Of a DNA stretch of 64,000 nt, positions 16,882-42,472 are shown in pieces. The DNA is taken from positions 2,108,001-2,172,000 of the forward strand of contig NZ_CP040709.1 of the NCBI RefSeq assembly GCF_005952805.1. Direction: 5' to 3'. Position numbers and translations under genes: made by a program. Source of the DNA: Inhella inkyongensis. Its GTDB lineage: Bacteria > Pseudomonadota > Gammaproteobacteria > Burkholderiales > Burkholderiaceae_C. Below the pieces are notes generated by a model. That model had not been told where the DNA came from, ran no database searches, and saw only the letters and a program-made list of their open reading frames with translations. Numbering within the stretch: the first letter of the stretch is position 1; each line of letters begins with the position of its first letter.

Positions 16882-16892
16882 GGGGGCATGCC

Positions 16893-20123: not shown

Positions 20124-20142
20124 TCACCGGCACTCAGATGAG

Positions 20143-20170
20143 GGCACCCGCGGAGGCGGGTGCCTTCTTC
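20143..20170 (+). terminator. Rho-independent terminator after RND operon
   Basis: GGCACCCGC (20143-20151) and GCGGGTGCC (20156-20164) form a perfect 9-bp stem with loop GGAG, followed by TTCTTC. It ends the adaptor-permease operon 20 bp after the permease stop. Confidence 0.85.
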
Positions 20171-20204
20171 ATTGAGGTAAGGTGTCGCCCCTTGCCGAGG
20201 ATCC

Positions 20205-22016
20205 ATGAGCGACACCGTCCCCCCCCTGATCGATGAACCCAATGCCTTGCCAGCCGGCACGCGCTTTGGTGAGCTGGAAATCCTGCGCGTGCTGGGTGTG
20301 GGCGGCTTTGGCATCGTCTATCTGGCCATGGATCATGCGCTGGAGCGGCAGGTCGCCATCAAGGAATACATGCCGTCGCAGTTGGCGCAGCGCCAGCAAA
20401 GCACGACGGTGGTGGTGCGCTCTTCGCAAGTGGTCGAAACCTTTGAACTGGGCCTGCGCAGCTTCGTGAACGAGGCGCGCATGCTGGCGCGCTTTGACCA
20501 CCCCTCGCTGCTCAAGGTCTATCGCTTCTGGGAAGCCAATGGCACCGCCTATATGGTGATGCCATACCTGCAGGGCAAAACCCTGAAGCAGGTGCGCGAG
20601 GCCAGTGGGGACGCGCCGGGCGAGGCCTGGATCATGAAACGCGTGTTGCCCTTGATCGAGGCGCTGGAGTTGTTGCATGCCGAGCAGGTGTTCCACCGCG
20701 ACATCGCACCCGACAACATCCTGCTTCCCAGCGATGGGGCCGACCCCATCCTGCTGGACTTTGGCGCGGCCCGCCGCGTGATCGGCGACCGCACGCAGAG
20801 CCTGACTGCCATCTTCAAGCCCAGTTACGCGCCCATCGAGCAATACGGCGAGACCACCCAGCTGCGCCAAGGCGCCTGGACCGATGTGTACTCGCTGGGT
20901 GCGGTGCTGCACTATTTGTTGGTGGGCACACCGCCGCCCCTGGCTACCACCCGTGCGGTGGTAGACGAGATGGTGCCGCTGGCGCAACGGCGCGACTGGC
21001 CCATGCACTCGCGCCATTTCCGTGCAGCCATTGATTGGGCGCTCTCGGTTCGCCCCAGCATGCGGCCCCAGTCCATGGCGGAAATGCGCGATGCGCTGAT
21101 GGGCGACCGCACGCTGCCGGTGGTGCGGCCCAATCTGCCGCCACCTGCTGATAAGGGCTCCAGCGTCGCGGCAGCGTTACCGTCTGCCGCACCGGCGCCA
21201 ATGGCCGCCGACCAGGGTTACGAGTTCACGCAGATCTTGCCGGCAGCGGCCGTCATGGATCAGGCGGTGACGCAGCCGCTGCACCAGGCCCCCCCAGTCG
21301 CTGCAGTGCAGAGTCCGGCGTCCGCTTCGGCACCGAAGCCTGCGCCACAACCCGCAGCGGCAGCCCCAGCACCCCAGACCGCCAAGTCGGGCCCCCTTTC
21401 TGTTGCAGGGGCCTTGCCCAGCCAAGACCACAAGGAAGTGGCCAAGGGCCTGCCCAAGGCATGGTGGTGGGGTGCGGGCGCCTTGGGCCTGGTGCTGTTG
21501 ACCAGCTTTTGGTGGGTGTTGGTCAGTCGACCGGCTGGCCCGCCAGGCGCCGAATCTGCTGATCTGACCCACGCGGACGCGGCCAGCGCGCCCTCTTCGG
21601 CTGCGGTGACCGCGGCCTCGACTCCTGCAACGCAGACCAGCGCCGTTCCTGTCGTGCCGCCGACGGTTCAGACAGGGAAGGCCGGTGCGGTCGCCGGGCT
21701 GGAGTCCACTGGCAAGTCGCCGGCCTCGGCGATCACTGCTCCCAAATCGGTGGCATCCGCTGAACCCGCCGCATCAAGGCCGCCTGCGGCCCGATTGCCG
21801 CGCCTGGCCAAGCCTGAACCGGCTGTGGCGCAACCCGCTGTTCAGGCCGAGCCTGAGACTGCTGTGGGTCATGAAGATCCGCGTGCTGCCTGTGGCGACC
21901 GGGTCTTCATCGCACTGTGGCGCTGCATCGAGCGCAATTGCGAAGAACCACGTTACCGCGAGCACGCCGAGTGCGTGACTCTGCGGGAGCGCCGCGAACG
22001 CCGGGAACGGCGCTAG
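20205..22016 (+). CDS. Membrane-anchored Ser/Thr protein kinase
   Basis: 603 residues. An N-terminal eukaryotic-like kinase domain (about 22-305) has the glycine loop GVGGFGIVY (31-39), ATP lysine K53 (VAIKEY), catalytic HRD 164-166 with N171, and DFG 185-187. A Pro/Ala-rich juxtamembrane linker (about 310-415), one TM segment (about 419-442), a second Ala/Thr/Pro-rich extracytoplasmic stretch and a short Cys-containing tail (CGDRVFIALWRCIERNC) ending in an Arg/Glu repeat follow. The HRD is followed by IAPDN rather than the usual LKPxN, as in many proteobacterial kinases. Targets are unknown. Confidence 0.88.
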   Translation: MSDTVPPLIDEPNALPAGTRFGELEILRVLGVGGFGIVYLAMDHALERQVAIKEYMPSQLAQRQQSTTVVVRSSQVVETFELGLRSFVNEARMLARFDHPSLLKVYRFWEANGTAYMVMPYLQGKTLKQVREASGDAPGEAWIMKRVLPLIEALELLHAEQVFHRDIAPDNILLPSDGADPILLDFGAARRVIGDRTQSLTAIFKPSYAPIEQYGETTQLRQGAWTDVYSLGAVLHYLLVGTPPPLATTRAVVDEMVPLAQRRDWPMHSRHFRAAIDWALSVRPSMRPQSMAEMRDALMGDRTLPVVRPNLPPPADKGSSVAAALPSAAPAPMAADQGYEFTQILPAAAVMDQAVTQPLHQAPPVAAVQSPASASAPKPAPQPAAAAPAPQTAKSGPLSVAGALPSQDHKEVAKGLPKAWWWGAGALGLVLLTSFWWVLVSRPAGPPGAESADLTHADAASAPSSAAVTAASTPATQTSAVPVVPPTVQTGKAGAVAGLESTGKSPASAITAPKSVASAEPAASRPPAARLPRLAKPEPAVAQPAVQAEPETAVGHEDPRAACGDRVFIALWRCIERNCEEPRYREHAECVTLRERRERRERR

Positions 22017-22049
22017 CGGTGTGAGCGGCACACAGTGCCGCCCCCGCGC

Positions 22050-23438
22050 TCAACACTCGACGATATTGACCGCAAGACCGCCGCGGGCGGTTTCCTTGTA
22101 CTTGGTCATCATGTCGGCACCGGTGTCGCGCATGGTCTTGATGACCTTGTCCAGGCTGACAAAGTGCGTGCCGTCGCCGCGCAGGGCCATGCGGGCGGCA
22201 TTGATGGCCTTGACCGAGGCGATAGCGTTGCGCTCGATGCAGGGGATCTGGACCAGGCCGCCCACCGGATCGCAGGTCAGGCCCAGGTGGTGCTCCATGC
22301 CGATCTCGGCGGCGTTTTCCACCTGCTCGGGCGTGCCGCCCATCACCGCGCACAAGGCGCCGGCGGCCATCGAACAGGCCACGCCCACCTCGCCCTGGCA
22401 ACCCACCTCGGCGCCGCTGATGCTGGCGTTTTCCTTGTAGAGGATGCCGATGGCGGCGGCGGTGAGCAGGAAGTCGACCACGCCGTCCTCGGTTGCCCCA
22501 TGGAAGAAGCGCGAGTAGTAGTGCAACACCGCCGGCACGATGCCGGCCGCGCCGTTGGTGGGCGCAGTGACCACGCGGCCGCCAGCGGCGTTTTCCTCGT
22601 TGACCGCCAGGGCGTAGAGGTTGACCCAGTCCATCACCTGCAGCGGATCGCGCAGCGCGGCCTCGGGGTTGGCGGTGAGTTGGGCATGCAGATCGGCGGC
22701 GCGCCGCTTGACCTTGAAGCCACCGGGCAGGATGCCCTCGGTCTTGCAGCCGCGCGTCACGCAGTCCTGCATCACCTGCCAGATTTTCAAGAGGCCGGCG
22801 CGGGTCTCGGCATCCGGCCGCCAGTGGGCCTCATTGCGCCGCATGATCTGGGCGATCGACAGTCCGTGCCGTTTGGCCTGGGCCAGCAACTCATCGCCGG
22901 TCTTGAAGGGGTAGGGCAGGACGGTGGCATCGGGTGCGATCACCTTTTGCTTGCTGCCGTCGGCAGCCACCTCGTCGCTGACGATGAAGCCGCCGCCCAC
23001 CGAGTAATAGACCCGGTTGGCGATCTCCTGGCCCGCTGAATCGAAGGCCAGGCAGCGCATGCCATTTGCATGGAAGGGCAGGGACTCGCGGCGTTTGAAG
23101 ATCAGGTCGGTGGACTCAACGAAGCCCACATCCTTCTGGCCCACCACACTGAGTCGACCGCCGCGAATCGTGTCCAGATAGGTCGGGATGGCCTCGATGT
23201 CCACCGTGTCCGGCTCATGCCCGGCCAGGCCCAGCAGCACGGCTTTGTCGCTGCCATGACCCTTGCCGGTGGCACCCAGAGAACCGTAGAGGATCACCTG
23301 GACACGCGCCACATCCTCCAGCAAGCCCTCGCTGGCCAAGCGCAGGCCGAAGAGGCGCGCCGCGCGCATCGGGCCCACAGTGTGGCTGCTCGATGGGCCG
23401 ATGCCGATCTTGAAGAGGTCGAAAACCGACACGGCCAT
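22050..23438 (-). CDS. sdaA: L-serine ammonia-lyase (iron-sulfur type)
   Basis: 462-residue 4Fe-4S L-serine dehydratase converting serine to pyruvate and ammonia. The N-terminus [24 protein letters not shown], the SVGGGF motif and the cluster-region stretches [11 protein letters not shown] and [19 protein letters not shown] are all present. Beta and alpha parts are fused in one chain, as in E. coli SdaA. It starts 11 bp after gcvP, making it the last gene of a glycine-responsive operon: serine formed from glycine plus methylene-THF would be drained to pyruvate. Confidence 0.95.
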
Positions 23439-23449
23439 GGCGCGGCTCC

Positions 23450-26359
<2,910 letters not shown>

Positions 26360-26438
26360 GGCGCGGTCTCGGCAGTTCTCGGCAAATACGAGTCGGCCCA
26401 CCAAACAGGCGGGCCGAGGGTTCAGCGGGGCAGGGCGA

Positions 26439-26813
26439 TCAGCTGTTCTTCAGCAGGTCGTCGTAGGCGGTGCTGTCCATCATGGCGTCCAACTCGGCCG
26501 GGTTGGCCAGCTTGACCTTGAAGAACCAGCCGGCCTTGAGCGGGTCGGTGTTGGCCAGGGCGGGGTCGGCGCGCAGGCCTTCGTTGACTTCGACGATCTC
26601 GCCGGTCACCGGCATGTAGACGTCAGCGGCGGCCTTGACCGACTCGACCACGCCGGCGATTTCCTTCGGCGCATAGCTCTTGCCGATTTCAGGCAGGTCC
26701 ACGAACACCACATCGCCCAGGGCGTCCTGAGCGTGGTGGGTGATGCCGACGGTGGCGGTGCCGTCGCCGTGAACTTCGATCCACTCGTGGTCGGGGGTGT
26801 ACTTGATGGTCAT
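26439..26813 (-). CDS. gcvH: Glycine cleavage system H protein
   Basis: 124-residue lipoyl carrier that shuttles the aminomethyl group from P- to T-protein. The lipoylation site is K60 in [18 protein letters not shown]; the N-terminal [11 protein letters not shown] is typical. It has full length and no oddities. It is 28 bp downstream of gcvT with a GGAGCACCGAC ribosome-binding region before the ATG, and is part of gcvT-gcvH-gcvP-sdaA. Confidence 0.97.
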
Positions 26814-26841
26814 GTCGGTGCTCCTAAGAAATGGAAAGGGT

Positions 26842-27975
26842 TCAACCGCGGAAATAGCGTTGCGGGGCGAAAGGCATGGCGGCGACCTTCATGGCCACCC
26901 GCTTGTCGCGCACCAGCGCGAAGACTTCGGTGCCGATGGCCGCATGGCTGCTGGCCACATAGCCCATGGCCACCAGATGGCCGACCGTGGGGCCCAGGGT
27001 GCCGCTGGTGACGGTGCCGAGTTCAACGCCTTCGGCACTTACCAGCTTGGCGCCCTCGCGCACCGGCATCTTTTCGTTCGAGACCAGACCCACGCGCTTG
27101 CGCTGCACCGGGCTGGGTTGGGCCGCCTGGGTATTGGGCAATTGCGGGTCGATCACCGCATAGCCGGGGTAGCCACCGGCACGCGCGCCGCCACTGCGAC
27201 GCACCTTCTGGATCGCCCAGGTCAACGCAGCTTCCGCCGGGGTGGTGGTGGTGGTGATGTCGTGGCCGTAGAGGCAAAGGCCCGCCTCCAGGCGCAAGGT
27301 GTCGCGCGCGCCCAGTCCGATGGGCTTGACCTCGGGTTGGTCCAGCAACAAGCGCGCCACGGCCATGGCGTCGCGTTCGTGGATGGAGATCTCGTAGCCG
27401 TCTTCGCCGGTGTAGCCGCTGCGGGTGATGAAGGCCTCAAAGCCATCGATCTTGAAGAAGCCGCCGTCCATGAAGACCATCTTTTCGACGCCGGGTGCCA
27501 GACGGGACAGGGCGGTGACGGCCTGTGGGCCTTGCAGTGCCAACAGCGCACGCTCCGGGCTCTCGATGACCTCGCAGCGGCTGCTGAGGTGCTTCCTAAT
27601 GTGGGCGGTGTCCTGCACCTTGCAGCCGGCGTTGACCACCACGAACAGGTCGTCGGGCCGGCGGCAGACCATCAGGTCGTCGAGGATGCCGCCGTTCTCG
27701 TCGGTGAAGAGCGCATAGCGCTGCTTGAAGACTGGGAGGTCAATGATGTCGACCGGCACCAGGGTTTCCAGTGCGGCGGCGGCATCGGGACCGACCAGGC
27801 GCAACTGGCCCATGTGCGAGACATCGAACAAGCCCGCGGCCGTGCGGGTGTGGCGGTGCTCGGCCAGGATGCCTTCGCGGTATTGCACGGGCATGTCATA
27901 GCCGCCAAAAGGCACCATCTTGGCGCCGAGTTCGACGTGCAATGCGTGCAGCGGGGTCTTGAGCAGGGTGGTCAT
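26842..27975 (-). CDS. gcvT: Aminomethyltransferase (glycine cleavage T protein)
   Basis: 377-residue T-protein that releases ammonia and forms 5,10-methylene-THF from the H-protein-bound intermediate. Family marks are [20 protein letters not shown] near residue 10, VSHMGQLRL near 50, and the folate-domain stretch [14 protein letters not shown] near 190. It is the first gene of the operon; the start codon lies about 60 bp downstream of the second riboswitch aptamer, so the leader can control expression of the whole unit. Confidence 0.96.
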
Positions 27976-28037
27976 CGCGGAGCCTCACAGGGACAAGTCG
28001 TCATAAGGCGCAACCCCGTCGGGATGCACCGGCTTGC

Positions 28038-28242
28038 CCTCGCTGTCCGCTTTACCTGAGAGATTGGCAGGTCGCCCCGCTTGCCCCTTCGGTGGGCGGC
28101 CTGATGGCTCGCCTCTCTCCAGCTCGGAACGTGCGCTTGCGCGCACGGTACCCAGTCCTTTTGCCTGAGCGTTCGGCCCTGCAAGTCACCTTGCAAAGCC
28201 TGCGCCTTCGGCGGCCCGCCAATTGAACGGACTCTCTCCTGA
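28038..28242 (-). promoter_or_regulatory. Tandem glycine riboswitch upstream of gcvT
   Basis: Reading the minus strand, two glycine aptamers lie head to tail. Aptamer 1 (about 28242-28152) has GGAGAGAGTCC, GCCGAAGGCGCAGGC and CGCTCAGGCAAAAGGACTG. Aptamer 2 (about 28122-28038) has CTGGAGAGAGG, CACCGAAGGGGCAAGC and CTCTCAGGTAAAGCGGACAG. The linker between them is about 30 nt. Glycine riboswitches of this arrangement normally switch the gcv operon on when glycine is high, and here the switch would also drive sdaA. Confidence 0.93.
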
Positions 28243-28281
28243 GCGGCGCGGATTCTAGGCGGCGTCGCTATCCTGCCGATC

Positions 28282-28896
28282 ATGGATGAGAAAACTTTTT
28301 CGCCCACGGAGTGGGCGCTTCGTCCGACGCGATTGACTTGCGATCGAGGACGCGCCGTCGCCCTGGGCACCGAGGACGCGCCCCAGCTGCAGGCCTTCCT
28401 GGATCTCAACCCACGCTACAGCCAGATCGTCGCCGGCCGCCCTTGGCTGCCGGACGAGGCCCTTCAGGAACTGACTGAGACGCCGCCACCTGATTGGCCT
28501 CAAGGGCGAACCTGGAAGCTCGCATTGCTGGGGCCTGATGGCGACTGCCAGGGTTTGCTGGTCTATAGCGAGGATTTGCTGGCCCACGGCGTCTGGCATT
28601 TGGGCTTGCTTTTGATCGATGAACGTCTACAGCGTCAAGGCCTTGCGCGCCACTGGGTGGATGCCTTCGAGCGCCATGCCCGCGCTTGCGGTGCGCGCTG
28701 GGTGCGCCTGGGTGTGGTTGTGGGTAATGCGCCGGCCGAAGCCTTTTGGAGTGCGAGGGGTTGGGCTGAAGCCAAGCGACGGGAGGGTGTTCAGATTGGT
28801 GAGCTGGTGCAGGACCTGAGGGTGATGGTCAAGCCCTTGGCTGGCGATGCAAACCTCGACGAGTATCTGGAGCTCGTGAGCCGGGACAGGCCCTAA
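28282..28896 (+). CDS. GNAT-family N-acetyltransferase
   Basis: 204-residue acetyltransferase of the GNAT superfamily. The central part shows WHLGLLLIDERLQRQGLARHWVDAFERHARACGARWVRLGVVVGNAPAEAFWSARGW, i.e. strand 4, the R/QxxGxG/A acetyl-CoA loop (QRQGLA, about residue 115) and the NAxAxxFWxxxGW motif that closes the fold. The acceptor substrate is unknown. It is divergent from the glycine-riboswitch leader. Confidence 0.82.
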   Translation: MDEKTFSPTEWALRPTRLTCDRGRAVALGTEDAPQLQAFLDLNPRYSQIVAGRPWLPDEALQELTETPPPDWPQGRTWKLALLGPDGDCQGLLVYSEDLLAHGVWHLGLLLIDERLQRQGLARHWVDAFERHARACGARWVRLGVVVGNAPAEAFWSARGWAEAKRREGVQIGELVQDLRVMVKPLAGDANLDEYLELVSRDRP

Positions 28897-28974
28897 TGCG
28901 CGGCTCTGCGGTCGATGGGCATTCGGCTTCTCGTCGCGTGTTTCGGGCAAGGGTTTTGGCGGGGAGTAGTTGGC

Positions 28975-29004
28975 TTGTGTTCTTGTCTGTAAGGGCATAC
29001 AGTG
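28975..29004 (+). promoter_or_regulatory. Weak sigma-70-like promoter for the 27-codon gene
   Basis: TTGTGT (28975-28980) and TACAGT (28999-29004) are separated by 18 bp and lie 30 bp before the small-gene start. The match is moderate and the assignment tentative. Confidence 0.3.
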
Positions 29005-29033
29005 CTGGTATTGCATCCAGCCAGGAGTCCTCA

Positions 29034-29117
29034 TGTATCCCTTGTTGCGCCAAAACTATCAGCCCAAGCCTCAGTACCTCCCGCGTTGGGCGCGCTGGAT
29101 TTGGGCTTGGTGTTGAG
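29034..29117 (+). CDS. Small Trp/Arg-rich protein of 27 residues (hypothetical)
   Basis: A 27-codon frame from ATG 29034 to TGA 29115-29117 with AGGAG at 29024-29028, 5 bp before the start. The peptide begins MYPLLRQNYQPKPQYLPR and ends WARWIWAWC, so four Trp fall in the last nine residues after a Pro/Gln/Tyr-rich, net-positive N-terminal part. No similar family is recognised. It could be a membrane-interacting microprotein, or a Trp-sensing leader peptide, since inverted repeats follow, but no gene lies downstream on this strand. It stands alone in a gene-poor segment of about 570 bp. Confidence 0.45.
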
Positions 29118-29118
29118 C

Positions 29119-29162
29119 AACTCAATGCCCGCGGCGGGCTCCAGTGCTTCTCGTTGAGTTGA
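29119..29162 (+). repeat. Nested inverted repeats after the 27-codon gene
   Basis: Outer arms CAACTCAA (29119-29126) and TTGAGTTG (29155-29162) are perfect complements. Inside lies a second perfect hairpin, GCCCGC-G-GCGGGC (29128-29140). It starts 2 bp after the stop codon. There is no clean T-run, so terminator function is uncertain. Confidence 0.55.
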
Positions 29163-29225
29163 GAGGTCGGGAGTCGGCGCCTCGCGGCCAGGCACGACTC
29201 ACCCATGTGCCAGCCAAACGAGAGG

Positions 29226-29281
29226 GGTGAGGCTCCGGCGGATCTAGGGGACGTCCAAAGGCAAACGGACGTCCTCACCCT
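29226..29281. repeat. Inverted-repeat element with paired GGACGTCC palindromes
   Basis: GGGTGAGG (29226-29233) and CCTCACCC (29274-29281) are perfect inverted arms. Between them GGACGTCC, itself a palindrome, occurs twice (29250-29257 and 29268-29275), separated by 10 bp. The element lies in non-coding sequence about 35 bp left of the dif-like site. A structured RNA or a protein-binding site are both possible. Confidence 0.5.
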
Positions 29282-29315
29282 GAGCGCAAATCATCTGGGT
29301 CTGCGTGTCCAAGTT

Positions 29316-29343
29316 GGTTTACATAATGCACATTGTCGCCATG
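29316..29343 (-). other. dif-like XerCD recombination site (candidate)
   Basis: On the minus strand the 28-mer has an 11-bp right arm TTATGTAAACC (XerD side; 8 of 11 match E. coli dif), a 6-bp centre TGTGCA (4 of 6) and a left arm CATGGCGACAA (5 of 11). It sits in a non-coding gap exactly where gene direction and FtsK-type octamer polarity reverse. The XerC-side arm is weak, so assignment rests largely on context. Confidence 0.5.
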
Positions 29344-29463
29344 TTGGATAGGGAGTGATGGGGGCTCAGCCAGCGACGCCCGCCCTAACGGCAAAGCAAG
29401 CAGATCAAGCACCGGTTCAAGCCCCAGCAGGAAATGGCTGAGCACGGACGGTCGCAGCGGGGT

Positions 29464-29766
29464 CTAAAGCTTGACCGAATCGCCGAAAGGCGTTGAGGCC
29501 TTTGGCTCAGGCGACTGCAAACCACTTTCGGCTGGAACAACCCAGGGCTGGGGCTCTGCGGGCCGCTGCAGCAGGTAGCGATCCGCCAACCAGGAACCCA
29601 GACACAGAAGGCCGATCCAAAACGCCAGCGGCCAGAACAGAGCCTTGAGCTCGGGCAATCCGCCCGATCGAATCGGCGGTTTGTTTGCCGTCGCGCTTGG
29701 CGGCAGCCCATGATCCCCCCCGTCCCGCGGGTTCTCCTTCACGACGTTGTGATCCTGAGTGCCCAT
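29464..29766 (-). CDS. Hypothetical single-pass membrane protein
   Basis: 100 residues with a hydrophilic N-terminal half (Asn/Pro/Gly-rich), one strong TM segment (about residues 43-62, ALFWPLAFWIGLLCLGSWLA) and a Pro/Glu-rich C-terminus. GAGGGAG ends 4 bp before the ATG. No family is recognised. It lies 53 bp downstream of the next minus-strand gene and may share its transcript. The first gene to the right of the dif-like site. Confidence 0.6.
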   Translation of the reverse strand: MGTQDHNVVKENPRDGGDHGLPPSATANKPPIRSGGLPELKALFWPLAFWIGLLCLGSWLADRYLLQRPAEPQPWVVPAESGLQSPEPKASTPFGDSVKL

Positions 29767-29819
29767 TGATCTCCCTCTTGCCAGGATTGTGGCCCGGTGC
29801 GGGCCCTGGGCCGGAGCGC

Positions 29820-30062
29820 TCAGTGCGGTTCGCCGATGTCCACTTCCATGGCCTCGTCCTCAGGCAACTCCGAGTCCAGCCAGGCATCGAAGTCCGCGCA
29901 GGCCGAAGCGGCTGAGCCACTCAAGGGAATCAAGGGGCGATCCAAGGGCCGGTAAATGCGGCTGCGAAGACGGGCCAAGCGTTCAGAAGCGGCCACCTCG
30001 CGGGCCACGCCCTCAGGGTCCAGCAGCAAGGCAAAGGGATCGCCGAGATGGGAGTGCAACAT
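29820..30062 (-). CDS. Small conserved hypothetical protein, 80 residues
   Basis: The 80-residue product begins MLHSHLGDPFALLLDPEGV and contains RLARLRSRIYRPLDRPLIPL, a pattern I associate with small Burkholderiales proteins of unknown function. The C-terminus is acidic (DFDAWLDSELPEDEAMEVDI). The start at 30062 is preferred over a longer in-frame extension because the similarity-like part begins there. No membrane segment or signal peptide. It precedes the hypothetical membrane gene on the same strand. Confidence 0.6.
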   Translation of the reverse strand: MLHSHLGDPFALLLDPEGVAREVAASERLARLRSRIYRPLDRPLIPLSGSAASACADFDAWLDSELPEDEAMEVDIGEPH

Positions 30063-30142
30063 GATGAGGCCTTTCAAAGTGATGGCCTCACTGTAGGAAT
30101 GCATGCAGGCTGGCAACAGAGGGCCTGCGCCCAAGGGTCTTG

Positions 30143-30844
30143 TCAGGGTTTTGCTGACACCGTGTCAGGCTCGCGCAGCCCCAGGCGGCGCATGGCTTCG
30201 GCTTTGCCTGCGCGGCGTCCAAAGTCCCAGGGGCTGAACCCCAGGTCGTTGCGGGCGTTCCAGTTGGCGCCGCGCGCGAGCAGCATGACGGCTGTGTCCA
30301 GGCTGCCGTAGCCCAGGGCCATCATCAGCGGGGTTGTGCCGTTGGTTGATCGGGCATCCAGTTCGGCGCCCTGCTCCACCAGCCACTTGGCCACGCCGTT
30401 GTCCGGTCCGCTGCCGGCGTAATGCAGGGCGGACCAGCGGCGTTCTCCGCGTTGCGGGTCGATGGCGGCCCCGCGGGCCACCAGCGCCTGCGCCCAGTCC
30501 AGGCGCCCGCGCAGGGCGGCAATCATCAGCGGCCGCTCGTCGTTGTCATTGACGGCCTCGACGTCGGTACGCGGCTCGGCCAACAAGGCCTTGACGGATT
30601 TGGCCGACTCCTGCATCAGCGCCCAATGCAGGGGGCGCTGGCCCTTGTCATTGCGCACATTGGGATCCTGCCCGGCACGCAGCATCTCGGCCACGGCCGC
30701 GCCACTGTCGATGTCGATGTAGCGAAACAGGGTCAACACCGGATCGTTCCAGGCCTGGGACCACGCGGGCGGAACCGCCAGGGCGGCCCCCAAGGCTCCG
30801 AGTACCCCCAATGCGCCATTTGCCAGTGCGTTCCTGCGCTTCAC
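30143..30844 (-). CDS. Exported ankyrin-repeat protein
   Basis: 233 residues. A signal peptide (KRRNALANGALGVLGALGAALAVPPAWSQA, residues 2-30) precedes about five ankyrin repeats with the usual cores, e.g. KGQRPLHWALMQESAKSVKALL, NDERPLMIAALRGRLDWAQALVARGA and NGTTPLMMALGYGSLDTAVMLLARGA. The protein is likely periplasmic and protein-binding. The GTG start at 30844 overlaps the tatD stop (GTGA), giving translational coupling; an upstream extension inside tatD is less likely. Confidence 0.82.
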   Translation of the reverse strand: MKRRNALANGALGVLGALGAALAVPPAWSQAWNDPVLTLFRYIDIDSGAAVAEMLRAGQDPNVRNDKGQRPLHWALMQESAKSVKALLAEPRTDVEAVNDNDERPLMIAALRGRLDWAQALVARGAAIDPQRGERRWSALHYAGSGPDNGVAKWLVEQGAELDARSTNGTTPLMMALGYGSLDTAVMLLARGANWNARNDLGFSPWDFGRRAGKAEAMRRLGLREPDTVSAKP

Positions 30845-31629
30845 GCCTGCGCCTCCGGCAGCCCAAACAGGGCTCGCGCGTTGGCGCTGGTTTGCGCGGC
30901 CACAGCTTCCAGCGGTTGGGCCCACAGCGCTGCCAGCTGCGCCGCCACATGGGGCACATAGGCCGGCTGATTGAGCTTGCCTCGGTAGGGCACCGGGGCC
31001 AGATAGGGGCTGTCGGTCTCGATCAGCACCCGGTCCTGCGGCATGGCGCGCGCCACCTCGCGCAAGTCAGCCGCATTCTTGAAGCTCAGGATGCCGCTGA
31101 AGGAGATGTAAAAGCCCAGATCCACCACCGAGCGCGCAACCGCCAGGTCTTCGGTGAAGCAGTGGAAAACACCGCGCGCACGGCCCTGCCCTTCCTCGCG
31201 CAGGATGGCCAGGGTGTCTGCCGCGCTGGAGCGGGTGTGGATCACCAGCGGGAGATCGGCCTGCACGGCCGCGCGGATATGCACCCGAAAGCGCTCGCGC
31301 TGCCACTCCATGTCGGCCAGGCTGCGGCCGTTCAAGCGGTAGTAGTCCAGGCCGGTTTCGCCGATGGCGCGCACGCGCGGATGTTGCGAAGCCTGCAGCA
31401 ACTCGGCCACATCGGGCTCATGCACGTCTTCGTTGTCAGGGTGCACGCCCACGCTGGCCCACAACTCGGGGTGTTGCTCGGCCAGGCTGAGGACGGTGGG
31501 GAACTCTTCCATCGTGGTGCAGATGCACAGCGCCTGATGCACCCGCGCGGCGCGCATGGCGGCCAGCAGGTCGGGCAGTTGCTGGCGCAACTCGGGGAAG
31601 CTCAGATGGCAGTGAGAGTCGATGAACAT
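30841..31629 (-). CDS. tatD: TatD-family metal-dependent hydrolase/DNase
   Basis: 262-residue TIM-barrel hydrolase. Metal ligands are visible: H6 and H8 (FIDSHCHL), a Glu in AIGETGLDYYR near residue 92, His in LVIHTRSS and GVFHCFTE, and Asp in LIETDSPYLAP. TatD proteins are Mg-dependent 3'-5' DNases or related hydrolases. The order holB-pilZ-tatD is conserved in many proteobacteria. The gene lies 41 bp after pilZ and overlaps the ankyrin gene. Confidence 0.9.
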   Translation of the reverse strand: MFIDSHCHLSFPELRQQLPDLLAAMRAARVHQALCICTTMEEFPTVLSLAEQHPELWASVGVHPDNEDVHEPDVAELLQASQHPRVRAIGETGLDYYRLNGRSLADMEWQRERFRVHIRAAVQADLPLVIHTRSSAADTLAILREEGQGRARGVFHCFTEDLAVARSVVDLGFYISFSGILSFKNAADLREVARAMPQDRVLIETDSPYLAPVPYRGKLNQPAYVPHVAAQLAALWAQPLEAVAAQTSANARALFGLPEAQA

Positions 31630-31670
31630 GGTCGCAGCCCCCGCGCGAGCATTGGGGGCAAGAGCCCGCC

Positions 31671-32051
31671 TCAGATGGTCTGGGTGGGCTTGGAAGACGA
31701 AATGCTGGTGCCCAAGATCTCCTCGATCTTGTGCTTGATCTGGCGCGTCTTCTCGTCGCTGGGGAAACGCACCCCGATGCCCTGCGTGCGACCACCGGCC
31801 GCATTGGGCGGCGTCACCCAGGCCACCTTGCCGGCCACGGGATAACGTGCGGCGTCATCGGGCAAGGCGATCAGCAGATAGACGTCTTCGCCCAGCCGGT
31901 AGTCGCGCGTGCTGGGCACGAACAAGCCGCCATCCGTGAACAGCGAGATGTAGGCCGCGTAGAGGGCGCCCTTTTCCTTGAACACCAGCTGGATGACGCC
32001 GGGCCGGCCGGCACCGGCCACGGCCGTATTGGGGAGTTTGGTATCGCTCAC
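31671..32051 (-). CDS. pilZ: PilZ-domain protein (type IV pilus assembly type)
   Basis: 126-residue PilZ domain with GVIQLVFKEKGALYAAYISLF, GGLFVPSTRDYRLGEDVYLLI and WVTPPNAAGGRTQGIGVRFP. It appears to lack the RxxxR c-di-GMP-binding motif at its N-terminus, as in the PilZ type that acts in pilus assembly rather than nucleotide sensing. The GTG at 32051 (VSDTKLPNTAV) is chosen because homologue-like sequence begins there. Position between holB and tatD supports the name. No pilus genes lie in the window. Confidence 0.78.
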   Translation of the reverse strand: MSDTKLPNTAVAGAGRPGVIQLVFKEKGALYAAYISLFTDGGLFVPSTRDYRLGEDVYLLIALPDDAARYPVAGKVAWVTPPNAAGGRTQGIGVRFPSDEKTRQIKHKIEEILGTSISSSKPTQTI

Positions 32052-32092
32052 GGCGGCGAGTGTAGTGGTGGGTCTGAGGCCGGCGGGCTGGG

Positions 32093-33079
32093 CTATCCCT
32101 TGGCCGGCCGCAGGCCGGCCTGCGCCTGGGCCGCCAGGGTGTCGAGCCACAGGCCCGGGGTCAGCGGATGCTCACCCTTGGCACGCGCCTGGCGCAACTC
32201 CTGCGCCCAGCGCTGTAGGGCTTCGGCCTTGGCCGGCGGTGGCAGGCTGGCGCCATCGAAGTAGAGCGCGGCCTGGCCATGCGCACGGCGCAATTGGTCA
32301 TGGGCCAGCCGTGCCAACAGGTCGATGAGCGTGGGCAGCCCCAGGGCTTCATGGGCGCTCAGATCGCCCTGCTGAGCGTCCGTCACCAAGGCCGCCAGGC
32401 GTTGCGTATTCAAACCGGCGCTGTGCCAGCTCAAGGCCTGGCCGGGTCGGCCGGCTGAAAGGCTCAGCAGCGTTTGCGCGTCTGCCGCGGGCAGGCCTTG
32501 ATGGGCCAGCCACTGGGTGGCCTGCGCGGCGCTGGGGGCCTCCAGCTGCAGCACCTGGCAGCGCGATCGAATGGTGGGCAAGAGTTCGTCTGGCGCGGCG
32601 CAGCTCAGCACAAAGCGCAAGGCGCCGCCCGGCTCTTCCAGGGTCTTGAGCAAGGCATTGGCCGCAACGGTATTGAGGGCCTCGGCCGGGTGGATGCCCA
32701 CCACCTTGCCCTGGCCCCGGCCGCTGGTGGAAATGCTGAAGTCCAGCATCGCCCGCACTTCGTCGATGCGGATTTCCTTGCTCGGTTTGGCCTTGCCTTC
32801 GGCCGGTGCCTCCTCGAAGCCAAGCTGCACGCGCAAGGCAGCCGGCAGCAGCCAGCGCTCATCGGGGTGGCTGCGCTGCGCCACCAGATGGCAGGAGGCG
32901 CAGTGGCCGCAGGCCGGTGTGCCGGGTGCATGGTCCTCGCACAACCAGGCTTGGCTGAGCGCGCGGGCCAACTCGAACTGCCCCAGTCCCGCCTGGCCGG
33001 TGATCAACACCGCGTGGGTCTTGCCCAGGCTGAGTGCCTGCTGCAAGGCGCCCTGCAGGAAATCCGGCAGCGGGGCCAT
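32093..33079 (-). CDS. holB: DNA polymerase III subunit delta'
   Basis: 328-residue clamp-loader subunit. The degenerate P-loop GQAGLGQFELA (Lys replaced by Gln) is normal for non-hydrolysing delta'. The zinc-binding cysteines fall in CEDHAPGTPACGHCASCHLV, and the sensor-like region HPAEALNTVAANALLKTLEEP is typical. The ATG at 33079 shares its A with the tmk stop (TGATG); a GTG one codon earlier is possible. Part of mltG-tmk-holB-pilZ-tatD. Confidence 0.92.
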   Translation of the reverse strand: MAPLPDFLQGALQQALSLGKTHAVLITGQAGLGQFELARALSQAWLCEDHAPGTPACGHCASCHLVAQRSHPDERWLLPAALRVQLGFEEAPAEGKAKPSKEIRIDEVRAMLDFSISTSGRGQGKVVGIHPAEALNTVAANALLKTLEEPGGALRFVLSCAAPDELLPTIRSRCQVLQLEAPSAAQATQWLAHQGLPAADAQTLLSLSAGRPGQALSWHSAGLNTQRLAALVTDAQQGDLSAHEALGLPTLIDLLARLAHDQLRRAHGQAALYFDGASLPPPAKAEALQRWAQELRQARAKGEHPLTPGLWLDTLAAQAQAGLRPAKG

Positions 33080-33693
33080 CACCAGCCGCGCTCCTGCAGG
33101 GCCGCCGCCAGTTGAGCACCGACGGCGGACACGGCTTGCCCAGCGTCAAGGCGCACAAAGCGCTCGGGCTCGGCGGCGGCACGGCGCGCATAGGCGTCCC
33201 GGACGCGCTCGAAGAATTCCAGATCCTGGGCTTCAAAGCGGTCGGCGTCGCGCGCTGCCGCGCGGCGTCGGGCGGCTTCTGCAGGGTCCAGGTCAAACCA
33301 CAAGGTCAGGTCCGGGCGGCGACCCGCGACGGTCCATTGCTCCAGGGTTTCCAACTGCTCCCAGGCCACGCCACGGCCGCCGCCCTGGTAGGCAAAGCTG
33401 GCATCGGCAAAGCGGTCGCACAGCAGCACGCGGCCGGCCGCTAGCGCCGGCTCCAGCACGGTCAGCCAATGGTCACGCCGGGCACCGAACACCAGCAGGG
33501 CCTCGGTCAGCGGGTCCATGCTTTGGTGCAGCACCAGTTCTCGCAGGGTCTCGGCCAGGGGCGTGCCACCGGGCTCGCGGCTGCGCAGCACGTCGGCGCC
33601 ACAGGCACGCAGACGGGCCTCCGTGGCTTCCAAATGGGTGGACTTGCCGGCACCGTCGATGCCTTCGAAGCTGATGAAGCGAGGGGGAGTCAC
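33079..33693 (-). CDS. tmk: Thymidylate kinase
   Basis: 204-residue dTMP kinase. P-loop [11 protein letters not shown] (K17), the DR(Y/F) motif [17 protein letters not shown] near residue 93, and the LID region [14 protein letters not shown] are visible. It catalyses dTMP to dTDP. It sits 4 bp after mltG and overlaps holB by one base; the mltG-tmk-holB order is the classical one. Confidence 0.95.
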
Positions 33694-33697
33694 GGAA

Positions 33698-34702
33698 CTA
33701 TCGATTCAATTGAAAACGCTGGACGGCGCGATTGTGGGCGTCCAAGGTGGCGCTGAACTCTGAGCTGCCATCGCCGCGTGCGACGAAGTACAGCGCATCG
33801 GTGCGCTCCGGGCTCACGGCCGCGCGCAGCGCCTCGCGGCCGGGCAAGGCAATGGGCGTGGGCGGAAGGCCACGCCGGGTGTAGGTATTGAAGGGCGTGT
33901 CGGTCTGCAGATCGCGTTTGCGCAGATTGCCGTCAAAGCCTGTGCCCAGGCCGTAGATCACGGTCGGGTCGGTCTGCAGTGGCATGCCGATGCGCAGGCG
34001 GTTGTGGAACACGCCCGAAATCCGCCCCCGGTCGGCCGCGCGCCCGGTCTCCTTCTCGACGATGGAGGCCAGCACCAGGGCGTCATCGGCGCTCTTTAAG
34101 GGGCTTTCGGCGTTGCGCTGGACCCAGGCGTTCTCGAGCTCGCGCTGCATGGCCGCATGGGCCTGCTTCAACACGGTCAGATCGCTGACGCCGCGGCCAT
34201 AGCGGTAGGTGTCTGGGAAAAAGCGCCCCTCAGCCGCTTGCCCCGGTGCACCCAGGCGGGCCATCAGCTCGGCATCACTCAGCGCGCCCACCGTCTGCCG
34301 CAACCCCGGCGCTTTGGCCAGGGCGGCACGCGCCTGGGCAAAGGTCCAGCCTTCGATCAGTCGCAGCGCTTCCAGCTGCTCTTCGCCGCGCAGCATCTTG
34401 TCCAGCCAGCGCTGGGGGGTGTCGCCCGTGCTTAGCGCGTAGCTGCCGGCGCGAATCTGGTGCGCACGGCCCGAGAGGCGCAGTACCGCAAAAAGCAGGC
34501 GCTCATCCACTTGCACTCCAGCGGCCGCCCAATCGCGCGCCACCCCTCTGGCCGTGCTGCCGGGGGCGATGGTCAGCTCCACGCTGGCCGCGGCCAGCGG
34601 CAGCGGCGCGCGCCACCACTGCCAGGCCCAGACGCCCAGGGCGCCGCCCGCCAGCACCAGCAGCAGCAAACTCACAAGGGCGAAGCGAAACAGCGATTTC
34701 AT
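33698..34702 (-). CDS. mltG: Endolytic murein transglycosylase
   Basis: 334-residue YceG-like protein that cleaves nascent glycan strands at the inner membrane. One TM anchor (residues 6-28), a LysM-like region (about 40-110) and the YceG catalytic domain follow; the catalytic Glu is E216 in [10 protein letters not shown]. Other marks are [14 protein letters not shown] and [14 protein letters not shown]. The ATG at 34702 starts the TM anchor; the longer in-frame extension overlaps the divergent ygfZ. First gene of the run to tatD. Confidence 0.93.
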
Positions 34703-34778
34703 GGGGCGCGGATCATGCCTCAAGCAGGGAGACCGGCGGGGAGGCCGGAGGGCTTTTTGGCGTTTGGATAATGCCGCC

Positions 34779-35666
34779 ATGACAACCGCTACCCAAGGCG
34801 CCTGCCGCCTCGCCCACTGGGGCCTGATCCGCGCCGAAGGCGCTGACGCCGCCAGCTTCCTGCACGGCCAACTCACCCAGTCCGTCACCGATCTGTCCAC
34901 AACTCAGGCCCGCCTGGGCGGCTATTGCTCGGCCAAGGGCCGGTTGATGGCCAACTTCGTGCTGCTGCGCGAAGGGCCTGAAAACTTTGCGCTGCTGCTG
35001 CCGCGTGAGCTGATCCCCGGCCTGGTCAAACGCCTGTCCATGTTTGTGCTGCGTGCCAAAGCCAAGCTGCGCGACGCCAGTGACGAGACCCCGATCTGGG
35101 GATTGGTGGGGCCCGGAGTGCCCGCTGAGCTGCCCATCTGGGGCGTGCAGGCCGGTTTGCTGCGTTTGCCCGATGCCTTGGGCCAGCGCCGCGCGCTGGT
35201 TCTGGGCACGCAGCCGCCCTCCTCTGCCGAGTTGTCTGCGCCGGACTGGGCCTGGCTCGAGGTACAGGCCGGCCTGCCCTGGGTCAGCGCCGGCACCGCG
35301 GAACACTTCGTGCCGCAGATGATCAATTGGGAGCTTCTGGGCGGCGTGAACTTTCAAAAGGGTTGCTACCCCGGCCAGGAAGTGGTGGCGCGCAGCCAGT
35401 ACCGGGGCACGGTCAAGCGCCGCACCCAGCTGTTGTTGGGGGCTGCGGCAAGCCCGTTGCCGCTGGCCGGTGCCGAGCTGTTCGCGGGGCCGGATCGTGA
35501 GCAGCCGGTGGGCGAGGTGGTGATGGCCGCGCAGCAAGGCGACCAGATGGCCCTGCTGGCCGAGCTGCAGCTCAGCGCCTGGGAAACCGAGGCCGAGCTG
35601 CAAACCAGCGATGGCCAGCGCCTGCAGCGCGCCGCCCTGCCCTACGCGGTGAAGGCACCCGAATGA
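34779..35666 (+). CDS. ygfZ: Folate-binding protein YgfZ
   Basis: 295-residue GcvT-like folate-binding protein involved in assembly or repair of certain iron-sulfur enzymes. The hallmark KGCYPGQE motif includes C196. The N-terminal FLHGQLTQSV matches the family. It is divergent from mltG with 76 bp between starts, and its stop overlaps the DUF4936 start (ATGA). Its genomic proximity to the iron-sulfur enzyme SdaA is probably coincidental. Confidence 0.9.
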   Translation: MTTATQGACRLAHWGLIRAEGADAASFLHGQLTQSVTDLSTTQARLGGYCSAKGRLMANFVLLREGPENFALLLPRELIPGLVKRLSMFVLRAKAKLRDASDETPIWGLVGPGVPAELPIWGVQAGLLRLPDALGQRRALVLGTQPPSSAELSAPDWAWLEVQAGLPWVSAGTAEHFVPQMINWELLGGVNFQKGCYPGQEVVARSQYRGTVKRRTQLLLGAAASPLPLAGAELFAGPDREQPVGEVVMAAQQGDQMALLAELQLSAWETEAELQTSDGQRLQRAALPYAVKAPE

Positions 35667-35965
35667 AGGGCGCTGCGCCCTACGGCCCGGTCCGCTTGTA
35701 CGTCTACTTCAAGCTCAGCCTGGAGCAGGCCCAGGCCTGGCGGGAGCGCTGGCGCAGCGCGGCTCAGCAGGCCGCAGCGACCGTGCCCGGCGTGCAGCTC
35801 AGCCTGAGCGAGCGCCCTGAGGCGCACATGACCTGGATGGAGAGCTACCGCGCCGCCACGCCAGCGCAGATGGCCGACGCCGAGGCGCTGATGGCCCGTT
35901 CGCTGATGGAACTGGGCGTTGAGCGGCACCGCGAGGTCTTCGTCGAAACGTATCGGGTCGGGTAA
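35663..35965 (+). CDS. DUF4936 family protein
   Basis: 100-residue protein of the DUF4936 type. It begins with a strand VRLYVYFKLSLEQAQAW, has a conserved MTWMESYRA near residue 57 and ends RHREVFVETYRVG. The fold is probably a ferredoxin-like alpha/beta domain. The function is unknown. The start overlaps the ygfZ stop, so the two are translationally coupled, which is common in Burkholderiales. Confidence 0.78.
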   Translation: MKGAAPYGPVRLYVYFKLSLEQAQAWRERWRSAAQQAAATVPGVQLSLSERPEAHMTWMESYRAATPAQMADAEALMARSLMELGVERHREVFVETYRVG

Positions 35966-36392
35966 CTGCGCGGGTGGCTCCCCGGCCCCGAGCCTGAGCC
36001 TGAGCCGAGTGCGCGCCCAGTTGCCCGGCTTTGAAATCAACCGCGTCGACACCAGCGGCGACGGCAGCCAGCCCCGTCGGGTGGAGGTGCTGCGCCTCGG
36101 GCTTTGAAAAGCTGCCCGGCTTGCGCTAGCCCGGCCTTCAGTTGATCAAGCGCTCAGGCAAGAAGGAAGGCAACCTCGCCCAGAAGCGGGTCAAACGGTC
36201 CAGCAAGAGGCACAAAAAAAAAGGGGTCGATGCCCAGGCCTTCTACGGTCGGCAAAAACCTGGACCGATTCCGTTGCCGGGTCGGCAGCGAGCACCTTTA
36301 CACAAGCCAGGGCCCGAACCAAAAACATCGAACTGCTCATACACCCCCCTGCCAGGGCATTTCGCTCAAGCCATTCATCGGCGAACCCACCA
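35966..36392. other. Gene-poor spacer of about 430 bp
   Basis: No convincing gene. A short in-frame stretch near 36010-36107 on the plus strand (PGFEINRVDTSGDGSQPRRVEVLRL, split here only by quoting) has gene-like codon use and could be a gene remnant. A run of nine A's lies near 36214-36222. The right part is lower in GC than its left neighbours. Confidence 0.4.
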
Positions 36393-37469
36393 TCACAAAT
36401 TCTCCAACGCCGCCCGCGCACTGTTCAATTGCTCAACCCAGCGTGCGTGATATTCTTCAGGCTCGCGTCCGAGTGGAAACTTTCGGACCTGCCGCTCAAT
36501 GATGGCGCCGAGATCTTGCCGACCGAGCGAATGGGCCAGCGCCAGAAAACTGATGCTGACGCCCAGCGATGCAATATTCTCTTCATCCTCTCGCAGAATA
36601 TCCGCCGCTGTCTGGCAACGATTTAAGAAGGGAATGTATTTATTCAGCAGCAAATCAAGCGCCACCTCCAGCCAGGCGGAAAACTCAACCGAAGTCTCCG
36701 CGCGATGCTCCCAAACGCTCAAATATTGGCAATGGAGCGCGTGATTCGGAAAATCCGCCCCGGAATGCAGGCAAACCGAAATCGGGTACATCGGCGCCAG
36801 AGCAGTCTCTATCGCAGCGTCGACCTCCAGCTCAAGCCGGCAGGTAAGCTGGTGATTGATCGTTCCGGGAGGGGGCCGCGTCACCTGAATGACCTGTTCG
36901 CCCGCCTCGGTTCGACGCCGAAATTGGCTGTAGTTTTCTCCGGCCACTAAACGGAAACCCAGCGGGGCCAAGGCGGGCAGCAGCCGCTCGCGGGTCATGG
37001 CTTGGGCCAGTCGCTCGCTCAGGCGTTGGGCACGCCAGTCCGGCGGGACGGCTGCCGCTGCCCCCGGCACAACCGCACTGCGCTCCAGGCGCCCGTCGTG
37101 ACCGAATAGCCGGCCGTCTGGCAGTTGCACCGTCCCGGCCTGCTCGTCCAGCAGCACCAGACCCAGGGCCTGGGCCTCGTCCTCCAGCACTGGTATCAAC
37201 TCCGCCGGCCCGTCGCCATAAAGGGCCAGGCTGAACACCGCGCCATCCCATTCCAGACGCGGCGGCGCCGGCACCAGCCAGGTGGGCCCATTGGGGTCCG
37301 CCGCGCCCACCTCTTGCGGAAAGTGCGCCACCAGGCGGGCAATCAAAGCCCGGAACTTGTCCGGCGCCGGTGCCGGCACCCCTTCTTCGCTCAGGCGCTC
37401 CAACATCTCGCAGGCCTGATCCAGGGAGTCCGGTACCGGCGACTCCCACAACTGCACCACATAACTCAT
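36393..37469 (-). CDS. Tandem paralogue 1, two-domain protein of unknown function
   Basis: 358 residues, ATG at 37469. The N-terminal half (1-157) begins MSYVVQLWESPVPDSLDQ and contains GLVLLDEQAGTVQLPDGRLFG; the C-terminal half (about 158-358) contains LLPALAPLGFRLVAGENYSQFRRR and a PMYPISVCLHSGADFPNH stretch, loosely reminiscent of DUF4304-type domains. There is no signal peptide or TM. Residues 2-157 are identical to those of the next gene, while about 20 substitutions fall after residue 157. The DNA of the C-terminal half is visibly AT-richer than that of the N-terminal half. The function is not recognised; adaptor or immunity-like roles are speculation. Confidence 0.8.
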   Translation of the reverse strand: MSYVVQLWESPVPDSLDQACEMLERLSEEGVPAPAPDKFRALIARLVAHFPQEVGAADPNGPTWLVPAPPRLEWDGAVFSLALYGDGPAELIPVLEDEAQALGLVLLDEQAGTVQLPDGRLFGHDGRLERSAVVPGAAAAVPPDWRAQRLSERLAQAMTRERLLPALAPLGFRLVAGENYSQFRRRTEAGEQVIQVTRPPPGTINHQLTCRLELEVDAAIETALAPMYPISVCLHSGADFPNHALHCQYLSVWEHRAETSVEFSAWLEVALDLLLNKYIPFLNRCQTAADILREDEENIASLGVSISFLALAHSLGRQDLGAIIERQVRKFPLGREPEEYHARWVEQLNSARAALENL

Positions 37470-37577
37470 GGTCTTTTCCCTGATTGGACTCTTGATGAAT
37501 GCGCAGGCAATTCTTGGTTGTGTGCTGCGGCAATCGGTTTTTAGGTTGACTGCGAGGCCAACTCACCCACTCTGTCA

Positions 37578-38672
37578 TCAATCCAGACTTTTTTGTTGAA
37601 GTTGCTCCAACGCCGCCCGCGCACTGTTCAATTGCTCAACCCAGCGTGCGTGATATTCTTCAGGCTCGCGCCCGAGTGGAAACTTTCGGATCTGCCGCTC
37701 AATGATGGCGCCGAGATCTTGCCGACCGAGCGAATGGGCCAGCGCCAGAAAACTGATGCTGACGCCCAGCGATGCAATATCCTCTTCATCCTCTCGCAGA
37801 ATATCCGCCGCCGTCTGGCAACGATTTAAGAATGGAATGTACTTCTTCAACAGCAAATCAAGCACCACCTCCAACCAGGCGGAAAACTCAACCGAAGTCT
37901 CCGCGCGATGCGTCAAAACACCCATATATTGGCGATAGAGCACGTGATTCGGAAAGTCCGCCCCGGAATGCAGGCAAACCGAAATCGGGTACATCAGCGC
38001 CAGAGCAGTCTCTAGCGCAGCGTCTAACTGCAGCTCAAGCCGGCAGGTAAGCTGGTGATTGGACGTTCCGGGAGGGGGGCGGGTCAGCTTAATGAATTGC
38101 TCTCCCGCCTCGGTTCGACGCCGAAATTGGCAGTAGTTTTCCCCGGCCACCAACTGGAAACCCAGCGGGGCCAAGGCCGGCAGCAGCCGCTCTCGGATCA
38201 TGGCCTGGGCCAGCCGCTCGCTCAGGCGTTGGGCACGCCAGTCCGGCGGGACGGCCGCCGCTGCCCCCGGCACAACCGCACTGCGCTCCAGGCGTCCGTC
38301 GTGACCGAACAGCCGGCCGTCCGGCAGTTGCACCGTCCCGGCCTGCTCGTCCAGCAGCACCAGACCCAGGGCCTGGGCCTCGTCCTCCAGCACCGGTATC
38401 AACTCCGCCGGCCCGTCGCCATAAAGGGCCAGGCTGAACACCGCCCCATCCCATTCCAGACGCGGCGGCGCCGGCACCAGCCAGGTGGGCCCATTGGGGT
38501 CCGCCGCGCCCACCTCTTGCGGAAAGTGCGCCACCAGGCGGGCAATCAAAGCCCGGAACTTGTCCGGCGCCGGTGCCGGCACCCCCTCTTCGCTCAGGCG
38601 CTCCAACATCTCGCAGGCCTGATCCAGGGAGTCCGGTACCGGCGACTCCCACAACTGCACGACATAACTCAC
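37578..38672 (-). CDS. Tandem paralogue 2, two-domain protein of unknown function
   Basis: 364 residues, GTG start at 38672 with GGGGAG 5 bp before it. Same two-part architecture as the gene that follows it. Residues 2-157 are identical to the paralogue with only silent base changes, the rest carries about 20 replacements, and the C-terminus is longer (QLQQKSLD in place of NL). Flanking sequences upstream of the two starts are unrelated, so the duplicated unit begins at the coding sequence. The 108-bp spacer between the copies holds no gene. It looks like a recent duplication with diverging C-terminal domains. Confidence 0.8.
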   Translation of the reverse strand: MSYVVQLWESPVPDSLDQACEMLERLSEEGVPAPAPDKFRALIARLVAHFPQEVGAADPNGPTWLVPAPPRLEWDGAVFSLALYGDGPAELIPVLEDEAQALGLVLLDEQAGTVQLPDGRLFGHDGRLERSAVVPGAAAAVPPDWRAQRLSERLAQAMIRERLLPALAPLGFQLVAGENYCQFRRRTEAGEQFIKLTRPPPGTSNHQLTCRLELQLDAALETALALMYPISVCLHSGADFPNHVLYRQYMGVLTHRAETSVEFSAWLEVVLDLLLKKYIPFLNRCQTAADILREDEEDIASLGVSISFLALAHSLGRQDLGAIIERQIRKFPLGREPEEYHARWVEQLNSARAALEQLQQKSLD

Positions 38673-38740
38673 GGTTTCTCCCCTGGAATGCTTTGGCCGA
38701 GGCGATGGGGCCTCCTGGCAGCCTTTTTCCCACTGCACTG

Positions 38741-38758
38741 CGGGGTTCGAACCCCGCT
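38741..38758. promoter_or_regulatory. 18-bp perfect palindrome upstream of paralogue 2
   Basis: GCGGGGTTCGAACCCCGC reads the same on both strands. It lies 68 bp upstream of the paralogue 2 start and 75 bp after the stop of the binding-protein gene. No T-run follows on either strand, which argues against a terminator. It could be an operator or a recombination remnant. Confidence 0.4.
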
Positions 38759-38833
38759 TGGCGCCACCGGCAGCGACACCGACAGTGACACTGTGCCAGA
38801 CCCCCCTTGGGTGGTTGCTGGCTGGAGGATCGC

Positions 38834-39664: not shown

Positions 39665-39769
39665 GGCCCACCCTCTCCTTTTGGTTGACGCTCACCCCAA
39701 GCAAACCATTCTGTCCCGGCTGGCGTGGTGTCCACTGGGTTCGGCCGGTTCAGCGCGGTCGGATTGGCG

Positions 39770-40261
39770 TCAGTCGACGGCGATCAGCAGGCACACCGCC
39801 CGGGCCTCGATGGCCTTCTTCTCGCCCACCGGCCCCAGCTTTTCGGCCGTTTTGGCCTTCACATTAATCGAAGCACTCTCCAGGGCCAGCACTTGAGAGA
39901 GGCGCAGGCGCATGGCGTCGATGTGCGGCGCGAGCTTGGGCGCCTGGGCCACGATGGTGCTGTCGATGTTGACGATCTGCCAGCCCTGCTCGCGCACGCG
40001 GCGTGCGGCCTCGGCCAGCAGCAGCATGGAGTCGGCGCCCTTGAACTCGGCCGCCGTGTCGGGGAAGTGGCGGCCGATATCGCCCAGGCCGGCGGCACCC
40101 AAGAGCGCGTCGGTGATGGCATGGGCCAGGGCGTCGGCGTCCGAATGCCCCAGCAAGCCGTGCGTGTGCGGCACGGTGATGCCGCCCAGGATCAACGGCC
40201 GGCCCTCGACCAGTTGGTGCACATCCCAGCCCTCTCCGATGCGCAAATTCGTCAACTTCAT
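39770..40261 (-). CDS. ispF: 2-C-methyl-D-erythritol 2,4-cyclodiphosphate synthase
   Basis: 163-residue trimeric enzyme of the MEP isoprenoid pathway. Metal ligands D13 and H15 lie in GEGWDVHQL; the signature [30 protein letters not shown] and the C-terminal [19 protein letters not shown] are present. Its start overlaps the ispD stop (ATGA), so the two consecutive pathway enzymes are coupled. Last gene of the long minus-strand run. Confidence 0.96.
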
Positions 40262-42401: not shown

Positions 42402-42472
42402 CACGTTCGGTGCCCTCGCACCGCCTCGTTGAAGGGTTCACGCAAGGCCTTGGCCTTGCGTCAAGCCTTCGC

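Follow-up and report, generated by a model that had tools for sequence, protein, structure and literature searches.

A replication terminus and a probable dif site in lineage-specific spelling on the chromosome of Inhella inkyongensis

The window analyzed here is a stretch of 64,000 nucleotides, bases 2,108,001-2,172,000 of the one-contig genome of Inhella inkyongensis (assembly GCF_005952805.1, contig NZ_CP040709.1; 4,084,412 bases, completeness 100), a genus placed in Sphaerotilaceae, Burkholderiales. Near 29.3 kb it contains a 28-mer that resembles dif, the site at which the recombinases XerC and XerD act. A first-pass annotation, made from the letters of the window, had proposed that the replicon terminates here, and the sign change of the GC skew, the reversal of polar octamers and the conservation of the 28-mer support the proposal. 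The window almost certainly spans the replication terminus of this betaproteobacterial chromosome, with the 28-mer as its dif site. Most likely the terminus is of the standard type, a known kind of chromosome machinery, and its dif is written in a spelling that appears to be specific to the lineage.

The 28-mer is flanked by a GNAT-like open reading frame (ORF) ending at 28896 and by minus-strand ORFs (29507-29920 or 29820-30134, depending on the caller), the first of which has no Pfam match. The position given in the first-pass annotation is exact, no called ORF runs over the site, and the 28-mer is non-coding as far as heuristic ORF calls show. Its 11-6-11 layout and its XerD half are as published for dif, and its XerC half is a variant (Table 1). 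The XerD half had rightly been called good. The XerC half had been called weak, which is true when it is measured against the classical GCATAA; on comparison with related sequences, the half is the lineage's own spelling, CGACAA.

In genome coordinates the 28-mer occupies 2,137,316-343, which is 52% along the contig. DnaA (PF00308) is found at 634-1116, and the contig start therefore appears to lie near the origin. The chromosome is presumably circular.

Gene calls based on the GC content of third codon positions place 15 genes on the plus and 11 on the minus strand to the left of the site, with 58% of codons on the plus strand, and 9 and 24 to the right. The flip in gene direction described earlier supports a terminus only weakly on the left side. 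Between 22050 and 27975 all genes (serine dehydratase, gcvP, gcvH and gcvT) are minus, and a single short plus gene (28282-28896) precedes the site. Two tandem glycine riboswitch aptamers (RF00504; 63.0 and 50.5 bits) lie on the minus strand at 28033-28251, upstream of gcvT, gcvH, gcvP and the serine dehydratase gene, in an ordinary arrangement.

Table 1. Features bearing on the terminus, in window coordinates
Feature	Position	Strand	Remark
KOPS-type octamers GGGNAGGG, pointing towards the site	8265, 11438, 12343, 22909, 23076, 26428 (8265..26435)	+	exact positions
KOPS-type octamers CCCTNCCC, pointing towards the site	31184, 35635, 45722, 50365, 51082, 51453, 51685, 55385, 55990, 56586, 57644, 61055 (31184..61062)	-	
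Probable dif site, 28 bp	29316..29343	-	XerC half CATGGCGACAA, centre TGTGCA, XerD half TTATGTAAACC
Predicted XerC half-site, lineage variant	29333..29343	-	inner CGACAA common to relatives; outer four bases free; fifth mostly G or T
Predicted XerD half-site TTATGTAAACC	29316..29326	-	of the published form
Cumulative GC-skew maximum	34007..34007	.	continuous 162 kb around the window

Octamer polarity and GC skew

The octamer GGGNAGGG belongs to the FtsK orienting polar sequences (KOPS). In the window its plus and minus copies stand at 6:0 to the left of 29.3 kb and at 1:12 to the right (Fisher p = 0.00026). No opposite-strand copy occurs to the left of the site in the window, and a single opposite-pointing copy is found to the right, at 41194. 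All seven GGGNAGGG and eleven CCCTNCCC positions of the first-pass annotation are exact, and one CCCTNCCC, at 51453, had been overlooked. The cumulative KOPS count, taken along 162 kb of continuous sequence surrounding the window, is highest on a plateau at 26428-31183.

Sampling of the chromosome arms covered 718 kb in 36 stretches beyond the window; with the window added, the sample comes to 782 kb, or 19% of the genome. The reversal near 29 kb, noticed earlier in the window, continues as the same trend on the sampled arms: with the window counted in, the left arm has 75 plus and 32 minus copies of GGGNAGGG and the right arm 20 and 75 (Fisher p = 1.8e-12), against 27:22 and 13:24 for the control octamer GGGANGGG (p = 0.08). 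Counted by leading strand, the ratio for GGGNAGGG is 150:52, so that 150 of the 202 sampled octamers (74%) aim at dif. The octamer is directed to dif on both arms and is over-represented, with 499 forward and 568 reverse copies in the whole genome, the reversed control having 224 and 223. When 7589 octamers of the form three bases-N-four bases, each occurring at least 60 times, are ranked, GGGNAGGG takes place 12 by leading-strand z-score and place 14 by ratio. It is among the most polarized motifs, yet not alone, as other G-rich words are polarized too.

The same test was applied to 9 of the 48 other genomes that match the site pattern described below, with 40 kb taken on each side and a resolution set by these 40-kb sides. 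KOPS polarity flips across the site in all nine, the totals being 87:16 on the left and 13:78 on the right (p = 4.6e-24); in one genome, G224, the left-side count consists of one octamer (1:0).

Conceivably the polarity merely follows from GC skew and from the direction of the genes, and FtsK has no part in it. Many G-rich octamers are indeed biased to the leading strand, eleven of the 7589 exceed GGGNAGGG in z-score, and GGGNGGGA, at 50:17, is about equal to it in ratio. This explanation is nevertheless improbable: across the genome GGGNAGGG outnumbers its reversed control about 2.4-fold, the control GGGANGGG has little polarity, and the genome encodes an FtsK gamma domain. Moreover, the left-hand octamers are all of one polarity despite the mixed orientation of the genes there. 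Three of the six (11438, 22909, 23076) lie in minus genes, two (12343, 26428) are intergenic and one (8265) is in a plus gene; the 6:0 bias thus does not simply track gene direction.

The sampled stretches outside the window have a positive GC skew in 17 of 18 cases on the left arm, the remaining one being -0.0001, and a negative skew in 18 of 18 on the right arm. The sign change falls inside the window, at the site, in agreement with the earlier impression of a plus strand G-rich on the left and C-rich on the right. No skew extremum elsewhere, which would have spoken against a terminus in the window, was seen in the 19% of the genome sampled. The local maximum of the cumulative skew is 4.7 kb from the site. 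Among the relatives, G002 and G005 have their local maximum no more than 1 kb from the site, and G161, G224 and G239 no more than 9 kb from it.

Conservation and copy number of the 28-mer

The 23-mer lineage pattern CGACAATGTGYATTATGTNAACC was searched at up to two mismatches, with the reversed pattern as control. In the genome of I. inkyongensis it has a single match, the site at 29316-29343. Among 399 family genomes it is matched in 49, the own genome included, and in 48 of these once; the reversed control has no match. Four of the six genomes of the genus carry it (the own genome, G000, with G002, G003 and G005), and G004 has a diverged copy in which the XerC half and the centre are unchanged and the outer XerD half is altered. 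A broader pattern is matched by 138 of the 399 genomes. The expectation that a true dif should be conserved in relatives is therefore borne out by the recurrence of the 28-mer in genus and family, accompanied by the KOPS reversal wherever that was examined.

A 241-base query around the site found three of the six genus genomes at E <= 0.001, the own genome in full. In G002 and G005 the alignments comprise 25 and 24 bases only, on the site and at 96% identity, which means that the flanks of the site did not align. A contig scan with the exact pattern returned 11 stretches, including those from Inhella gelatinilytica, I. crocodyli, I. proteolytica, Roseateles, Pelomonas, Rhizobacter, Methylibium and one Pseudoalteromonas. 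A record of Pseudoalteromonas flavipulchra, far from the family, has an exact match to ACAATGTGYRTTATGTNAACC at 4131-4151 (minus).

The conservation of single bases was measured on 30 sites drawn from 50 matches to CGACAATGTGYATTATGTNAACC. In the XerC half, the information content is 0.15 to 0.46 bits at positions 1-4, near the level of the flanks (at most 0.38), and 0.82 bits at position 5, mostly G or T. These five positions lie outside the search pattern, and the measure is therefore unbiased there; the pattern itself, and for some of them the read-out expression as well, had selected the inner bases, whose conservation is thus in part a product of the search. Position 24, free in the pattern, is variable (0.29 bits). 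It may be proposed, tentatively and with the balance somewhat against it, that CGACAA in place of GCATAA, together with four free outer bases, is a fixed and widespread dif spelling of the lineage to which XerC has co-adapted. If this is true, dif searches tuned to GCATAA overlook the chromosomes of the CGACAA lineage. No paper on dif in Inhella, or on XerC with dif in Sphaerotilaceae, was found in a limited literature collection.

The search for a better dif elsewhere, a further check on the first-pass annotation, gave nothing above chance in the whole genome, either with the lineage pattern or with the classical one. At up to three mismatches the classical pattern found no credible dif: its sole match, at 1389186, is unlike dif, and the reversed control has three. 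The 29316-29343 site escapes this pattern, from which it differs by four mismatches. A conserved 21-mer pattern at up to three mismatches has one match in the window and none in 100 dinucleotide shuffles; as the pattern was built from the site and its relatives, this comparison is partly circular, and it is the recurrence in relatives that counts instead. A loose pattern applied to 60 relatives at up to three mismatches was discarded as a count, all 60 matching at about the rate of the reversed control; the best of its matches in G002, G003, G005 and G012 are the dif site itself.

The best matches of the loose pattern in G052 and G038, genomes from two further families of the order, also look dif-like and have the XerD half TTATGTAAACT (match 1501-1521). 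Two dif-like sites on different contigs occur in G122, with CGACAATGTGYATTATGTNAACC, and in G218 (73% complete), with the broader pattern; the second site may belong to another replicon or to an integrated element, or the assembly may be mixed.

Recombinase genes and competing explanations

XerD is encoded at 2,230,370-2,231,239 (TIGR02225, 361.7 bits, cut-off 329.6) and an FtsK gamma domain, PF09397, at 2,325,698-2,325,880 (93.7 bits, cut-off 30.6). The protein at 760,536-761,408, the best model of which is XerC (TIGR02224), is likely to be XerC. Two tyrosine recombinase genes, at 334856-335743 and 346503-347390, have equal scores and are 11.6 kb apart; the first is closest to NF002331, and the pair looks like a duplicated or mobile gene.

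The following observations weigh against the 28-mer being the dif site of a terminus in this window. The XerC candidate, at 305.6 bits, stays under its curated cut-off of 335.15 bits, and the recombinase present at 334,856 and 346,503, of which one copy was scanned, passes NF002331, a model that NCBI also names XerC (408.9 against 371 bits). In four relatives the peak of the local 80-kb cumulative skew is off the site, by -19 kb in G284, -27 kb in G003, -33 kb in G233 and -40 kb, at the edge, in G012. One genome of the genus, G001, in 140 contigs, has no match to the site pattern. As many as 350 of the 399 family genomes are without a match to CGACAATGTGYATTATGTNAACC, and 261 are without a match to the broader pattern, figures that refer to these spellings only. 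Finally, the 28-mer agrees with E. coli dif at 17 of 28 positions and the next best places in the window at 16, and its XerC half is a poor match to GCATAA.

The low agreement with E. coli dif and the weak XerC half would be natural if the 28-mer resembled dif by chance and merely lay close to the true terminus, the real dif being another, unrecognized site. Such a coincidence is very unlikely. A chance sequence would hardly recur in four of six genus and 49 of 399 family genomes with a reversed control of zero, nor be kept in G002 and G005 where the flanks do not align, nor mark the point at which KOPS polarity flips in nine relatives out of nine; no classical dif stands above chance elsewhere in the genome. 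The possibility that a mobile element, or what remains of one, is integrated here and that the 28-mer is its XerCD attachment site can practically be set aside: phages that exploit XerCD are known in other bacteria (PMC4246890) and two tyrosine recombinase genes lie outside the window, 40 and 70 kb to the right of the site (2,177,790; 2,207,073), but this candidate was dropped when no second copy was found in the window (up to three mismatches) or in the genome (up to two), and 16 of the 20 ORFs scanned against Pfam between 16.9 and 60.1 kb fall into non-phage, non-integrase families, four having no match.

Proposed function and comparison with known systems

With the location of the dif site, the polarity reversal, the single copy (at up to two mismatches), the conservation and the genes for XerD, the FtsK gamma domain and probably XerC as observed, the following course of events may be sketched by analogy with E. 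coli, from which binding by XerC, XerD and FtsK, activation and recombination are all taken over. FtsK at the closing septum would load on GGGNAGGG octamers, most of which point from the origin to the terminus, and would translocate to the point at which their polarity reverses. There its gamma domain would activate XerD bound to TTATGTAAACC. XerD, together with XerC on the CGACAA half, would then recombine two copies of dif, thus returning a dimeric chromosome to two monomers.

The analysis locates the terminus of this chromosome and the site at which its dimers are likely to be resolved; it opens no new mechanism. In Inhella and neighbouring genera the dif spelling can help to orient assemblies and to recognize elements that use XerCD for integration.

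The octamer is identical to that of known KOPS, runs mostly from origin to terminus and reverses at dif; the polarity here is partial, with about three quarters of the copies directed to dif. PMC13342612 treats GGGNAGGG as general, and its strains include Burkholderia and Cupriavidus. The site itself may be compared with the proteobacterial dif sites described by Carnoy and Roten (2009, PMC2731167). It shares with them the 28-bp 11-6-11 layout, an XerD half of the form TTATGT-variable base-AA, a variable outer XerC half, and an intergenic, single position near the skew maximum. The distance from dif to the skew maximum ranges from 146 to 102766 bp in Table 1 of that paper, and positions 23-24 are variable in known sites, as position 24 is here. 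The dif of Syntrophus aciditrophicus has an identical XerD half, TTATGTAAACC, and the XerC half of the Shewanella oneidensis site carries ACAA on its inner side. The site of I. inkyongensis differs from the sites in that paper in the end of its XerC half, which is CGACAA where GCATAA is usual, and in its centre, which is TGTGCA where TGTATA is common.

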